Positions 23,467 through 29,896 of a DNA stretch of 63,184 nt are shown in pieces. The stretch comes from Betaproteobacteria bacterium (GTDB lineage Bacteria; Pseudomonadota; Gammaproteobacteria; Burkholderiales; Casimicrobiaceae), in NCBI GenBank assembly GCA_005881895.1, contig VBCG01000116.1:1-63184 (forward strand). Direction: 5' to 3'. The notes under the pieces are model-generated. The model was not told the origin of the DNA. It saw nothing but the letters and a program-made list of their open reading frames with translations, and did not search any database. Each line of letters opens with the position of its first letter. Position 1 is the first letter of the stretch. The translations under genes were made by a program, and so were the position numbers.

Positions 23467-23753
23467 GATTCCCCCGAGAAGTTTGATCGAAGCCGTCGCG
23501 GTCTCATGGTCTGCCGCTGTCATTACCCGAACATCGAATTCCCGCGTCCGGCGCGCGTGGGGCTGTGCGCTATCGTAGATCAGTGCTCCGCAAAAACGCA
23601 ACGGTCGCTGGGCACGCCGTAATGACGACGTCATCATGCCGCGACACAGTTGCTGACGAATCAATTATTTCGCAGTGAAACCTTGCTATCGATAAATTTG
23701 CGGCAGCCTAACCCACCCGGCATGTTCGTTAAAATTGACATGGAAGACATGCT

Positions 23754-25004
23754 GTGAGCGAAACATCGACGCAATCCGCGCACTCAATCGCGGAATCCGT
23801 TTACCGCGCCGAATCGCGTCGCGTGTTCGCCACGCTTGTTCGCCTGCTCGGCGACTTCGACGTTGCGGAAGAAGCGTTGCACGATGCGTTCCACGCGGCG
23901 CTCGAGCAATGGCCGCGCGATGGTGTGCCGGAGAACCCGCGGGCGTGGCTCGTGTCGACGGGCCGCTTCAAGGCGATCGACGGCATCCGCCGCCGCGCGC
24001 GCTTTGATTCGATCGAGGATCACGCCGAGCACGTCGAGAACATCGCCGATGAATCGCCGCAAGGGGACGATGAGAGCATCGAAGACGATCGCCTGCGACT
24101 CATCTTTACCTGCTGTCACCCGGCGTTGTCGTCCGACGCGCAAGTCGCGCTCACGCTCCGCGAAGTGTGCGGCCTTACCACCGAAGAGATCGCACAGGCG
24201 TTCCTGAGCGGCGCACCCACACTTGCCCAGCGCATCGTGCGCGCGAAGGCGAAGATCCGCGACGCGCGCATTCCGTACGAAGTGCCGACGCCGGATGAAT
24301 TGCCGCAACGGCTCGAGAGCGTGTTGCGCGTCGTGTACCTGGTGTTCAACGAGGGGTACCTGGCATCGTCGGGCTCGTCGCTGACGCGCGTTGATTTGTC
24401 AGCTGAGGCGATCCGTCTCGGGCGGCTGCTGGTCGATTTGCTGCCCGAGCCTGAGGCGGTCGGCCTGTTGGGATTGATGCTGTTGCATGAATCGCGACGC
24501 ACAGCGCGCACGTCGTCCACCGGCGGGATTGTGCTGCTCAATGATCAGGATCGCTCGCTGTGGAATCGCGAACAGATCGCCGAGGGATTGGCGCTGATCG
24601 AGCGCGCGCTCGCATCACGGCGCTTCGGCCCTTACACGCTTCAGGGCGCAATTGCAGCCGTACACGCCCAGGCGACGAATGCCGACGCCACCGATTGGGC
24701 GGAGATCGTCGGTATCTACGACGTCCTGCTGCGTCTCGAGCCATCGCCCGTCGTCGAGCTGAACCGTGCCGTAGCGGTCGCGATGCGCGACGGCCCCGCC
24801 GCCGGCGTGGCGCTCATCGAGACTATTCTTGGTCGGGGCGACCTTCAGGATTATCACTTGGCGCACGCAGCGCATGCGGACCTTTGCCGGCGACTCGGCG
24901 AGACGGCGAAGGCGCGGAGGTCGTATCAACGCGCGATCACGCTTTCGCGCCAGGATCAGGAGAGGCAGTTTCTCGAGCGACGACTAACCGAGCTGCCCGC
25001 ATGA
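23754..25004 (+). CDS. ECF RNA polymerase sigma factor with long C-terminal TPR-like extension (ECF42-type, COG4941)
   Basis: GTG start; ESVYRAESRRVFATLVRLLGDFDVAEEALHDAFHAALEQWPRDGVPENPRAWLVSTGRFKAID; sigma4 LREVCGLTTEEIAQAFLSGAPTLAQRIVRAKAKIR; 416 aa. Confidence 0.9.
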   Translation: MSETSTQSAHSIAESVYRAESRRVFATLVRLLGDFDVAEEALHDAFHAALEQWPRDGVPENPRAWLVSTGRFKAIDGIRRRARFDSIEDHAEHVENIADESPQGDDESIEDDRLRLIFTCCHPALSSDAQVALTLREVCGLTTEEIAQAFLSGAPTLAQRIVRAKAKIRDARIPYEVPTPDELPQRLESVLRVVYLVFNEGYLASSGSSLTRVDLSAEAIRLGRLLVDLLPEPEAVGLLGLMLLHESRRTARTSSTGGIVLLNDQDRSLWNREQIAEGLALIERALASRRFGPYTLQGAIAAVHAQATNADATDWAEIVGIYDVLLRLEPSPVVELNRAVAVAMRDGPAAGVALIETILGRGDLQDYHLAHAAHADLCRRLGETAKARRSYQRAITLSRQDQERQFLERRLTELPA

Positions 25005-25037: not shown

Positions 25038-25065
25038 TGTCGATTTGGGCGTCACCTGTTCGACT
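25038..25065 (+). promoter_or_regulatory. Candidate ECF42-type promoter P1
   Basis: TGTCGA-N17-CGAC (TGTCGATTTGGGCGTCACCTGTTCGACTA) upstream of small ORF 25085. Confidence 0.7.
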
Positions 25066-25084
25066 AGTTAGTGAAAGGACACAG

Positions 25085-25288
25085 GTGACGCAAATGCAAC
25101 GAGTCATATTCATCTTGGCCGCGTGGGCGCGCAGAGTGGGACCTTATCTCATGCTCGAAATCCTGTTACCCGGCGGTACGCTGTTCGCCTTGCTGCTGTT
25201 TTTGTACCAGAACCGGAAGGCCAGTTTGGGGCCTGTTGCCTCGCGGTCTCCGCTTGCGATGACGCGCGCGCCGATTCGTAATGTCTAG
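25085..25288 (+). CDS. Small single-pass membrane protein
   Basis: MTQMQRVIFILAAWARRVGPYLMLEILLPGGTLFALLLFLYQNRK; RBS-like GAAAGGAC; preceded by candidate promoter. Confidence 0.5.
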   Translation: MTQMQRVIFILAAWARRVGPYLMLEILLPGGTLFALLLFLYQNRKASLGPVASRSPLAMTRAPIRNV

Positions 25289-25358
25289 CATCTTGTACGG
25301 ACTTGGCGTGACGCTCGACTCGGCCAATTTGTCGCCGGAATTATTTAATGCGACCCAT

Positions 25359-25386
25359 TGTCGATTTCGGGCTTCCCCGATCGACT
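25359..25386 (+). promoter_or_regulatory. Candidate ECF42-type promoter P2
   Basis: TGTCGA-N17-CGAC (TGTCGATTTCGGGCTTCCCCGATCGACTA) upstream of the YCII gene at 25431. Confidence 0.75.
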
Positions 25387-25430
25387 ACAGGGTAGGTCCG
25401 CCCGCATTCCATCCCGATCAGGAGTGAGCC

Positions 25431-25766
25431 ATGAAATACCTGTGCCTCGTCTACCTCGAGGAAAGCAAATTGAGAACTATTCCCGACAGCGAATGCAAAG
25501 CGTACGGGGAAGGGCTCCGAAGCAACGGACGCTGGCTCGCCGCCGAGGCCCTCCAGTCGGTACAAACGGCAACGACCGTGCGCGTTCGCAACAGTAAGGT
25601 GTCAGTCACCGACGGCCCGTTCGCCGAAACGAAGGAGCAGCTCGCGGGCTTCTACCTGGTCGACGCGAAAGATTTGAACGAAGCCATCCAGCTCGCCTCC
25701 AAGATTCCTCCGGCGCGCGTGGGCAGCATCGAAGTGCGGCCGGTCAGAGAATTGGCTGTGCAATGA
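25431..25766 (+). CDS. YCII/DGPF-domain protein
   Basis: MKYLCLVYLEESKL...ATTVRVRNSKVSVTDGPFAETKEQLAGFYLVDAKDLNEAIQLASKIPPARVGSIEVRPV. Confidence 0.92.
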   Translation: MKYLCLVYLEESKLRTIPDSECKAYGEGLRSNGRWLAAEALQSVQTATTVRVRNSKVSVTDGPFAETKEQLAGFYLVDAKDLNEAIQLASKIPPARVGSIEVRPVRELAVQ

Positions 25767-25805: not shown

Positions 25806-26654
25806 ATGAACACCGGAAAAGCTTCTGATCTCGTTCGCAAGTACTACGCGGCTTACGAGGCCAACGACAGGAAAGTCGTCGAAGCGCTGTTGAGCGATGA
25901 CTTCAGATTCACCAGCCCGTACGACGATCACATCGACAGAGCGGCGTATTTCAAGAAGTGCTGGCCAAACAGCGAAAACATTCGCGCCTTTCGCATCGAT
26001 ACCTTGTTCGACAACGGCAGCGAAGCGATGGTCCATTACGAGCTCGAGCAAAAGGCCGGTGACCGATTCCAAAACACCGAGCATTTCAGATTCGACGGCA
26101 ACAAGATCAAGGACATCGAAGTCTTCTTCGGATCGCTGCCCAAAGGTGGTTCGAGCGCACAACCGCGCGCGCGCTCAGGGGACGAAAGCAACAAGAAATA
26201 CCTGTGCCTTGTCTACCAGCAAGACGGGAAGCTCGACGCGCTCTCAGAGCGCGAGTTGGATACGCTGGTCGCCGAGCTCGTCGACTGGGTCGACGAGCTC
26301 GAGAAGAGCGGTCGACACATCTATTCCGCGGGCCTCCAATCCGTCCGTTCGGCAACGACGCTGCGCAAGCGCAACGGCCAGCTGTCGATGACCGACGGTC
26401 CGTTTACCGAGACGAAGGAACACCTCGGTGGATTCACGCTCCTTAGCGCCAGGGACTTAAACGAAGCGATTCAGCTGGCCTCGCGGCTCCCCGCCGCTCG
26501 AATTGGCAGTGTCGAAGTGCGACCGCTGCTGGAGTCGACCGCCGATTTAAACGACCCGATCGACCGCAAGATCGCGGCTGCGTTACGCCGCAACCATCGC
26601 GATGCGATGCAACCGCGTGACCTGGGCATAACGCACGCGAGCGCGCACGTTTGA
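25806..26654 (+). CDS. SnoaL-like domain fused to YCII/DGPF domain
   Basis: N-term [38 protein letters not shown] (SnoaL/NTF2-like), C-term [13 protein letters not shown]...[47 protein letters not shown]. Confidence 0.88.
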   Translation: [282 protein letters not shown]

Positions 26655-26676: not shown

Positions 26677-28134
26677 ATGACAAGCACCATGGACCGCCGT
26701 AAGCGCTGGCTGGCATTCATCGTCCTGTGCTTTGGCGTTTTGATGATCGTGCTCGACACGACGATCGTGAATGTCGCACTGCCGTCGATCAAGGAAGATC
26801 TGCGCTTCACGGAAACCTCGCTCGTATGGGTCGTGAACGCATACATGCTGACCTTTGGCGGCTTTTTGCTGCTCGGCGGCCGGCTCGGCGATCTGTATGG
26901 GCATCGCCGGCTATTTCTCCTCGGACTCACGCTATTCACGCTCGCGTCGCTCGTCTGCGGGCTCTCGAATTTGCAGGGGCTGCTGATCGGCGCGAGAGCC
27001 GCGCAGGGCCTGGGGGGCGCCGTGGTCTCCGCGGTCGCGCTGTCGCTCATCATGAACCTGTTCACCGAGCCGGCCTATCGTGCGAAGGCGATGGGCGTTT
27101 ATGGCTTCGTGTGCGCGGGCGGAGGAAGCATCGGCGTGCTGCTGGGCGGAATTCTGACGAGTGCGCTCAGCTGGCACTGGATCTTTCTTGTCAACATTCC
27201 GATCGGTATCGCCGTGTACGCGCTGTGCGTCGCGCTGCTGCCGAATGCTCGCGGCCAGATGCAGAACGCGCGTCTCGACGTCGCAGGCGCGGTGACCGTG
27301 ACGACGGCGCTGATGCTTGCCGTCTACGCGATTGTCGACGGCAACGCGGCCGGCTGGGCTTCCGCACAGTCGATCGGATTGCTTGTTGCGTCGGCGGTGC
27401 TGCTCGCCATCTTTCTCGGGATCGAAGCGCGCGTCCGCTCGCCGCTCATGCCGCTTGGTCTCTTCCGCTTGCGCAATGTCGCGACGGCGAACGTCGTGGG
27501 CGTGCTATGGGCGGCGGCGATGTTCGCGTGGTTTTTCATTTCCGCGCTCTACATGCAGCTCGTGCTTGGTTACAGCGCGCTGCAAGTCGGTCTTGCCTTC
27601 TTGCCGGCGAACTTGATCATGGCGGTGTTCTCGCTCGGGCTCTCGGCCAAGCTCGTGATGCGCTTCGGCATCCGCGTGCCGCTCGCAGTGGGCCTTTTGT
27701 TGGCGGCGGCCGGGCTCGCACTCTTCGCCCAGGCGCCGGCCGAAGGCAGCTTCGCGTTGCACGTGCTGCCGGGCATGACGCTGCTCGGACTCGGCGCAGG
27801 CGTTGCATTCAATCCGGTCTTGCTCGCCGCGATGAGCGACGTCGCGCCGAACGAGTCCGGTCTTGCATCAGGCGTCGTCAATACTTCGTTCATGATGGGC
27901 GGCGCGCTCGGACTGGCGATTCTCGCGAGCCTCGCGGGCGCACGCACCGAGCATCTGCTTGCTTCGGGCGTCGACGCACTCATCGCGCGCAACGGTGGTT
28001 ACCACATTGCATTCGGCATCGGCGCGCTCTTCGCGGCTCTGGCCGCAATGCTCAGTGTGATGCTTATTCGCGTCCTACCCTATGCGCCGGCGCGCTCGAG
28101 TGAGCCCGCGATCGAGGCGCTGGAAAGGACGTAG
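26677..28134 (+). CDS. MFS drug exporter, DHA2 (EmrB/QacA-type)
   Basis: VLMIVLDTTIVNVALPSIKEDLRFTETSLVWVVNAYMLTFGGFLLLGGRLGDLYGHRR, 14-TM-type pattern. Confidence 0.93.
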   Translation: MTSTMDRRKRWLAFIVLCFGVLMIVLDTTIVNVALPSIKEDLRFTETSLVWVVNAYMLTFGGFLLLGGRLGDLYGHRRLFLLGLTLFTLASLVCGLSNLQGLLIGARAAQGLGGAVVSAVALSLIMNLFTEPAYRAKAMGVYGFVCAGGGSIGVLLGGILTSALSWHWIFLVNIPIGIAVYALCVALLPNARGQMQNARLDVAGAVTVTTALMLAVYAIVDGNAAGWASAQSIGLLVASAVLLAIFLGIEARVRSPLMPLGLFRLRNVATANVVGVLWAAAMFAWFFISALYMQLVLGYSALQVGLAFLPANLIMAVFSLGLSAKLVMRFGIRVPLAVGLLLAAAGLALFAQAPAEGSFALHVLPGMTLLGLGAGVAFNPVLLAAMSDVAPNESGLASGVVNTSFMMGGALGLAILASLAGARTEHLLASGVDALIARNGGYHIAFGIGALFAALAAMLSVMLIRVLPYAPARSSEPAIEALERT

Positions 28135-28171: not shown

Positions 28172-28543
28172 ATGAAATTTCTATGCTTGGGCTACTACGA
28201 CGAAAAGAAATTCGATGCGATGCCGAAGGATGAGGTCGACGCGCTCGTGCGCAACTGTCGCACCCACGACGAAGGACTTCACCAAAGCGGCCACCTGATT
28301 GCCGTGGCTTCTCTCGGACCCACGCGTACGACGAAGAGTGTGCGACCGAAACAGGGCAAAGCCTCGGTGACCGATGGTCCTTTCGCGGAGACAAAAGAGC
28401 AAATCGGCGCATTCTTCATCATCGAGGCGCGTGATTTGGACGAGGCCGCGGAGGTCGCGTCACTACATCCGGCGGCGCACCTCGGCGAACAGGTGGGATG
28501 GGGGATCGAGGTGCGGCCGATCGATCATTTCGAGCAACACTAG
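28172..28543 (+). CDS. YCII/DGPF-domain protein
   Basis: [21 protein letters not shown]...[53 protein letters not shown]. Confidence 0.9.
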   Translation: [123 protein letters not shown]

Positions 28544-28596
28544 CCGCAGGACATCGATTTTTCAATATTCACTTCAACTGTTACGAGGAGAATGCG

Positions 28597-29010
28597 ATGC
28601 AAGTCCAACCGTATCTGTTCTTCGACGGCCGCGCCGAGGAAGCTATCGAGTTCTATCGGAGCGCGCTCGGCGCCGAAGTGCAGACGCTGCTGCGTTTCAA
28701 GGACAATCCCGAAACACCTCCGCCCGGCATGGTTCCGCCCGGCGCTGAAAACAAGATCATGCATGCGAGCTTCGTAATCGGCGATACGACGGTGATGGCG
28801 TCCGACGGTCGCTGCTTGGGAAAGCCGGCCTTTCAAGGTTTTTCGCTTTCCTTCACCGTGCCTGATGAAGCCGAGGCCGAGCGGGTGTTTTCAGTGCTTG
28901 GCAAAGGCGGCCAAGTGCAGATGCCGCTCGCGAAGACGTTCTTTTCACCACGCTTCGGGATGGTCGCCGACCGCTTTGGAGGGTGGTGGATGGTCCATGT
29001 CGAGCGCTGA
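28597..29010 (+). CDS. VOC family / PhnB-like protein
   Basis: MQVQPYLFFDGRAEEAIEFYRSALGAEVQTLLRFKDNPETPPPGMVPPGAENKIMHASFVIGDTTVMASDG. Confidence 0.92.
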   Translation: MQVQPYLFFDGRAEEAIEFYRSALGAEVQTLLRFKDNPETPPPGMVPPGAENKIMHASFVIGDTTVMASDGRCLGKPAFQGFSLSFTVPDEAEAERVFSVLGKGGQVQMPLAKTFFSPRFGMVADRFGGWWMVHVER

Positions 29011-29041
29011 GACCAGGAGAAGAAGTGATGGAGAAGAAGTG

Positions 29042-29470
29042 ATGAGATTCATGATGCTGATGATCCCCAAGGGATACGAAAAGGCCGCGCCCGGCACGAC
29101 GCCGGATCCCAAGGCAGTCGAAGCGATGATGAAGTACAACGAGACGCTCAAGAAAGCGGGCGTGTTGCTGTCGCTGGACGGCCTTCATCCGCCCTCTGTG
29201 GGCGCGCGCGTCTCATTCACCGGCGGCAAGCCAACGGTGACCGACGGGCCGTTCATCGAGGCGAAGGAAGTCCTCGGCGGGTACTGGATGATCCAGGTGA
29301 AGTCGAAGCAGGAGGCTATCGAATGGGCGTCGCGCTGCCCTGCATCGGACAACGAAACAATCGAAATCCGGCAGGTGTTCGAAATGGCGGACTTTCCAGC
29401 GGACGTTCAGAAAATGGCGGAAAAGTTTCCCGACATGCAGCCGAAATTCGATCAGCCTGCAAGGTCGTGA
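29042..29470 (+). CDS. YCII/DGPF-domain protein
   Basis: MRFMMLMIPKGYEKAAPGTTPDPKAVEAMMKYNETLKKAGVLLSLDGLHPPSVGARVSFTGGKPTVTDGPFIEAKEVLGGYWMIQVKSKQEAIEWASRCP. Confidence 0.92.
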   Translation: MRFMMLMIPKGYEKAAPGTTPDPKAVEAMMKYNETLKKAGVLLSLDGLHPPSVGARVSFTGGKPTVTDGPFIEAKEVLGGYWMIQVKSKQEAIEWASRCPASDNETIEIRQVFEMADFPADVQKMAEKFPDMQPKFDQPARS

Positions 29471-29479
29471 CGTTTATCG

Positions 29480-29896
29480 ATGGAGAAAAAAATGGCGACC
29501 AAAATTTTCGTCAATCTGCCGGTGAAGAGTCTCGACAAGTCGATGGCGTTCTTCAAACGACTTGGCTACGGCTTCAACGCCCAATTCACGGACGAGACGG
29601 CGGCCTGCATGGTCGTGAGCGAATACATCTATGTCATGCTGTTGACGCACGACAAATTCAAGTCTTTCACGCCCAAAGCAATTGCCGATGCAACCAAAAG
29701 CACGGAAGTACTCGTCTGCTTATCTTGCGAGAGCCGCGCGAAAGTCGATGAGATGGTTCGCAAGGCGGTCGATGCCGGCGGAACGACGTACAAGCAGCCG
29801 GAAGACCATGGCTTCATGTATGGACACGGATTTCAGGACTTGGATGGGCATATCTGGGAACTGATCTACATGGAGCCCAGCGCAATAAAGCAATAG
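29480..29896 (+). CDS. VOC family (glyoxalase-fold) protein
   Basis: MATKIFVNLPVKSLDKSMAFFKRLGYGFNAQFTDETAACMVVSEYIYVMLLTHDKF...HGFMYGHGFQDLDGHIWELIYM. Confidence 0.92.
   Translation: MEKKMATKIFVNLPVKSLDKSMAFFKRLGYGFNAQFTDETAACMVVSEYIYVMLLTHDKFKSFTPKAIADATKSTEVLVCLSCESRAKVDEMVRKAVDAGGTTYKQPEDHGFMYGHGFQDLDGHIWELIYMEPSAIKQ

Follow-up and report, generated by a model that had tools for sequence, protein, structure and literature searches.

Two near-identical sites in a betaproteobacterial gene cluster are very probably promoters of the ECF42 sigma factor encoded upstream of them at 23754-25004, a factor that would also serve, in trans, a further transcription unit on another contig (C168). This promoter reading rests on the motif itself, its spacing, orientation and conservation, its rarity across the genome, and its co-occurrence with the sigma factor gene. 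ECF42 proteins are specialised stress-type sigma factors and are widespread. The DNA analysed, referred to throughout as the window, is the whole stretch of 63,184 nucleotides (positions 1-63,184, forward strand) of contig VBCG01000116.1, from Betaproteobacteria bacterium (Burkholderiales; Casimicrobiaceae; assembly GCA_005881895.1), and genome-wide searches covered the 4.29-Mb assembly.

Both sites occur where a first-pass annotation of this DNA had placed them, at 25038 and 25359, on one strand, with a 17-nt spacing and in front of consecutive open reading frames. Site 1 lies between the stop codon of the sigma factor gene (25004) and a 64-aa ORF (ATG at 25094), and site 2 in the gap that separates this ORF from the first YCII gene, whose ATG is at 25431; on the plus strand of the window, the two share the extended signature TGTCGATTT-N14-CGACTA. 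The features of the cluster, and of the unit in trans, are the following.

23754-25004, + strand: ECF42-type sigma factor gene, 416 aa, with sigma region 2, region 4, DUF6596 and a TPR-like C-terminal extension
25038-25066, + strand: predicted ECF42 promoter 1, TGTCGATTTGGGCGTCACCTGTTCGACTA; -35 TGTCGA at 25038-25043, 17-nt spacer, -10 CGAC(TA) at 25061-25066
25073 (G), + strand: predicted transcription start of promoter 1
25094-25288, + strand: small membrane-protein gene, 64 aa, with one predicted hydrophobic helix and homologues in relatives
25359-25387, + strand: predicted ECF42 promoter 2, TGTCGATTTCGGGCTTCCCCGATCGACTA; -35 TGTCGA at 25359-25364, 17-nt spacer, -10 CGAC(TA) at 25382-25387
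25394 (A), + strand: predicted transcription start of promoter 2
25431-25766, + strand: first YCII-domain gene, first of the promoter-2 operon (Pfam YCII, 1e-19)
25806-26654, + strand: SnoaL_2-YCII fusion gene (Pfam)
26677-28134, + strand: MFS transporter gene (Pfam MFS_1, 1.7e-49)
28172-29896, + strand: YCII, VOC-like, YCII and VOC genes separated by short gaps (Pfam); presumed end of the promoter-2 operon
Contig C168, position 2292: third perfect match to the extended signature, unlinked to the window cluster, flanked by a divergent GntR/aminotransferase-type regulator gene and by the VOC (glyoxalase fold)-DUF1428-AHSA1 (SRPBCC-type)-VOC-like operon that it precedes
Contig C168, position 2327 (G): predicted transcription start of the C168 site

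Conservation of the motif across ECF42 loci

The 350 bp located 3' of the sigma stop codon were searched for 87 distinct ECF42-type genes, gathered from 93 loci. In these regions, TGTCGA is followed by CGAC at a spacing of 17 in 30 cases and at all other spacings between 8 and 27 in a single one, while within the sigma genes themselves, taken for comparison, spacing 17 accounts for 1 of 7 TGTCGA/CGAC pairs. All 30 pairs lie on the strand of the sigma gene and 0 on the opposite strand, and the motif is found at this fixed spacing and orientation beside ECF42 genes of several phyla. Where loci have CGA[C/T] sites, the motif is present only downstream of the sigma gene in 31, only upstream in 8 and on both sides in 2; when a motif stands 5' of the sigma gene in these other loci, it usually fronts a YCII or VOC gene, itself located ahead of the sigma gene. 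A weight matrix (PWM), built from 45 sites belonging to other genomes only, attributes the highest score of the window to the site at 25359 (38.3) and a score of 32.9 to the site at 25038, the next-best value (11.0) being that of the reverse strand of site 2.

In an alignment of 56 sites TGTCGA is invariant, and the -10 element consists of CGA, followed by C or T and then mostly by A. The -10 of relatives reads CGAC in most cases and CGAT in some, and it looks, from these alignments, as if the element were CG[A/T]C across the group as a whole. In a divergent ECF42 clade (L142, L144, L145, L146, L165, L170 and others) CGTC replaces CGAC, and sigma residues G70/F72 are replaced by mostly A70, with R or N at 72; this co-variation between the third base of the -10 and residues 70 and 72, which is confounded by phylogeny, could be a specificity switch.

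The CGTC form is also that of the ECF42 factor RpoE10 of S. meliloti, whose three listed promoters are all TGTCGG-N17-CGTC (PMC6180224, Table 1), including a copy upstream of SMc01151 that did not respond to RpoE10 overexpression (PMC6180224). Like the RpoE10 promoters of SMc01149 and SMb20475 (PMC6180224), the window sites combine a TGTCG(A/G) -35, a 17-nt spacer and a CG(A/T)C -10; unlike the RpoE10 sites (TGTCGG, CGTC), they carry A at position 6 of the -35 and CGAC at the -10. In two of the three RpoE10 promoters the printed sequence ends 9 nt past the -10, a point taken here as the transcription start (PMC6180224), and the position at this same distance (motif position 36) is a purine in 47 of the 56 aligned sites. 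The starts predicted for both window promoters and for the C168 site were placed from this purine peak and from the comparison with RpoE10.

Since the halves of each site are partly inverted repeats, the reverse strands score above background (11.0 and 5.2), and the sites could be conceived of as dyad-like operators (GTCGA...TCGAC) recognised by a dimeric repressor or activator, not as promoters. Such operators are very unlikely, and were set aside on account of the single orientation of the motif across loci (30 to 0) and of its asymmetric conservation, with an invariant TGTCGA facing CGA, C/T and mostly A. Also at odds with them are the CGTC form of the divergent clade and of S. meliloti, which breaks the symmetry, the S. 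meliloti starts taken 9 nt downstream, and the identity of the conserved neighbour, which is a sigma factor, while the GntR-like gene found beside the C168 site has no counterpart close to the window sites.

Co-occurrence with the sigma factor and genome-wide rarity

The sigma factor is present at about 60% identity or more in 21 of 100 related genomes, and TGTCGAW-N16-CGACYA was found in 20 of these 21 vs 22 of the 79 others (Fisher 1.5e-8), in a count that makes use of the plain pattern. Across the 100 relatives, 50 of the 54 sites scoring at least 25 fall within sigma-bearing genomes, as judged by a PWM trained partly on cis sites of these same relatives. Exceptions include G034 and G010, incomplete assemblies with good motifs and no ECF42 gene; their high-scoring motifs are located at L113 and L116 (G034), where they front a small ORF and a YCII gene, and at L205 (G010).

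These exceptions, two relatives with motifs in which no ECF42 gene was detected, together with the presence in the genome under study of at least one other ECF-like protein of weak similarity (C94, E 4e-4), could suggest that a different ECF sigma factor is the main user of these ECF-type promoters, the ECF42 gene being merely a neighbour. This is highly improbable in view of the strong co-occurrence of motif and sigma gene over 100 genomes, of an adjacency that is conserved over several phyla, and of the fact that the sigma factor gene is the sole DUF6596 gene of the genome.

The assignment of the sites to the ECF42 factor also draws on their rarity. TGTCGA at -35 with CGA(T/C) at -10 is the reported ECF42 target signature used by the first-pass annotation, but the genome-wide scan that had been proposed with it, as TGTCGA-N16-18-CGAY, is too loose to discriminate: it was dropped after yielding 354 matches over the 4.29 Mb of the genome and, within the window, 4 vs 2.5 expected. 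The extended signature TGTCGATTT-N14-CGACTA has exactly 3 matches in the same genome, both window sites included, and 0 when read backwards over the whole genome as a control. Places with 0, 1, 2 and 3 mismatches number 3, 0, 6 and 73, respectively, and extrapolation from the three-mismatch class (455 x 27 combinations) predicts approximately 0.006 perfect matches by chance, the observed number being about 500 times higher. Chance similarity in a G+C-rich genome, to which the commonness of the loose pattern could point, is extremely improbable, being refuted by the genome count and its reversed control, the mismatch spectrum, the fixed spacing and the matrix scores, with the full signature intergenic each time and conserved in position across relatives.

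Lying in trans, on a contig other than that of the window, the third site was outside the view of the first-pass annotation, whose two sites stand. It has a matrix score of 34.7, and the operon that follows encodes small soluble-domain proteins, of kinds also found in the window cluster. An orthologue of its VOC gene from another family (G081; 71% identical) has the motif at a distance of 76 bp on its 5' side; a second orthologue (G085; 64% identical) is preceded by the CGTC form, and no CGAC-type site accompanies VOC paralogues of less than about 60% identity. In the genome, the relaxed pattern TGTCGAW-N16-CGACYA adds two matches only (C1:2198 and C129:2349), which were dropped as promoters, both being antisense within coding frames, of which one is nusA-like; with CGAT and CGTC allowed as well, the search recovers the same three sites and nothing further. 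Given that the relaxed and variant patterns add no promoter-like site, the predicted regulon of this genome comprises three transcription units, served by one sigma factor through three promoters, one of which would be in trans.

The sigma factor and its predicted targets

The gene upstream of the two sites encodes an ECF42-type sigma factor. Pfam searches identified Sigma70_r2 (2e-9), Sigma70_r4_2 (1.5e-7), DUF6596 (1.6e-35) and a weak, sub-cutoff TPR_7, and a profile comparison gives matches to ECF sigma structures in the PDB along the first 160 positions of the profile. An AlphaFold2 model (mean pLDDT 89) displays an all-helical C-terminal repeat domain, and the top matches in a fold search of the PDB are TPR proteins or chains, of which only the first has an E value below 0.001. 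Domains, model and fold matches thus fit ECF42 as described (PMC8999054, PMC6180224), with ECF-type regions 2 and 4, a C-terminal extension of approximately 200 residues with TPR, a YCII (DGPF) gene in the neighbourhood (the four YCII domains of the cluster are the genome's only ones), and promoters that have a TGTCGA -35 and a CG(A/T)C-type -10 at conserved spacing. The proposal that the sites are candidate ECF42 promoters is hence well supported, by the type of the upstream gene, conserved spacing and orientation, co-occurrence, and the match with S. meliloti RpoE10.

The combination of sigma domains with a TPR-type C-terminal extension of about 200 residues is shared with Sven_0747, Sven_4377 and Sven_7131 of S. 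venezuelae and with ECF-10 of P. putida (PMC8999054). These factors also have YCII neighbours and no anti-sigma gene nearby (PMC8999054), and among the adjacent genes scanned here with Pfam no known anti-sigma domain was detected, although the 64-aa membrane protein, which matches no family in either Pfam or NCBIfam, might be a partner. Binding of a protein to the TPR extension has been proposed to control ECF42 activity, with the partner left unidentified (PMC8999054, PMC9023288).

No similar site had been noticed before the sigma gene in the first-pass annotation, a remark supported by the best matrix score of that region (-8.6 at 23480-23760); direct autoregulation is not evident, as far as the sequence can tell. 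A sigma-70-like promoter was also sought before the sigma gene, yielding one weak match only, on the minus strand. The RpoE10 system is comparable in that no autoregulation was measurable there (PMC6180224), and in that its targets include glyoxalase-like/ligand-binding-domain proteins, some of them unlinked to the sigma gene (PMC6180224). Gene order differs between the two systems, the sigma gene preceding its targets here and the YCII gene preceding the sigma gene in S. meliloti.

Within the promoter-2 operon the matrix scan detected no motif. The gene at 25806-26654 joins SnoaL_2 and YCII domains in one fused protein, SnoaL_2 being the domain that is fused to ECF41 sigma factors.

The 64-aa product of the gene behind promoter 1, whose likely Shine-Dalgarno sequence is AGGTGA (25083-25088), contains a single, strongly hydrophobic segment and the conserved core GPYLxLEixLPGGTLxALLlfLY. 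The motif is located 5' of every ECF42-linked copy of this small ORF found in relatives, 78-90 nt before the start and with scores of 31.7-38.5; the distance is 56 nt in the window copy and 51 nt in a further copy from G034. Other unlinked paralogues carry no CGAC-type motif, including a second copy in the same genome (G000:C133:5547-5669, L115), which has no ECF42 motif upstream. As the linked copies carry the motif and most unlinked ones do not, promoter 1 appears to serve a conserved regulon member and not a chance ORF. In betaproteobacterial ECF42 loci a predicted ECF42 promoter of its own precedes the gene, immediately after the sigma gene or near it, and unlinked paralogues are mostly devoid of one, which raises the idea, in itself unlikely, that the protein is a dedicated partner of the TPR extension, acting as a minimal membrane tether, a feedback anti-sigma factor or a signal-passing subunit.

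A perfect 9-bp inverted repeat, GTCACCTGT / ACAGGTGAC (25051-25059 and 25081-25089), spans the -10 of promoter 1. Its two arms would occur together only in read-through RNA from upstream, where they would cover the Shine-Dalgarno sequence of the small ORF, RNA initiated at 25073 not containing both. The fold z-score of the repeat is only -1.3, and a hairpin role was not adopted, the repeat not being conserved in relatives. The predicted small-ORF leaders of relatives (L066, L067, L070, L071 and L126) start with GAAGG or similar, followed by a strong hairpin and by another, small hairpin in the region of the Shine-Dalgarno sequence; the window leader has neither of the two.

Proposed regulation and significance

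In the mechanism that we infer, including its start sites, dependence on this sigma factor, operon extents, activating signal and absence of direct autoregulation, the sigma gene would head the cluster under some other promoter, and its product would act when the TPR-like C-terminal extension permits activity. The active sigma factor would start transcription at approximately 25073, leading to the small membrane protein, at approximately 25394, leading to the YCII, SnoaL-YCII, MFS, YCII, VOC, YCII, VOC operon, and, in trans, before VOC-DUF1428-AHSA1-VOC (motif at C168:2292). It would consequently raise the levels of a membrane protein, several YCII/SnoaL/VOC/AHSA1-type proteins and an MFS exporter.

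The ECF42 promoter type was already known; to it the present analysis would add the operon in trans and a strict signature, together with a probable conserved target, the small membrane protein, of which the ECF42 reviews consulted make no mention. Unlike the loose signature, the strict promoter definition is suited to genome-wide prediction. The locus offers a compact, testable regulon for ECF42 sigma factors, with one sigma factor and three predicted promoters in a single genome, and suggests that the conserved small membrane protein is regularly an ECF42 target in betaproteobacteria.
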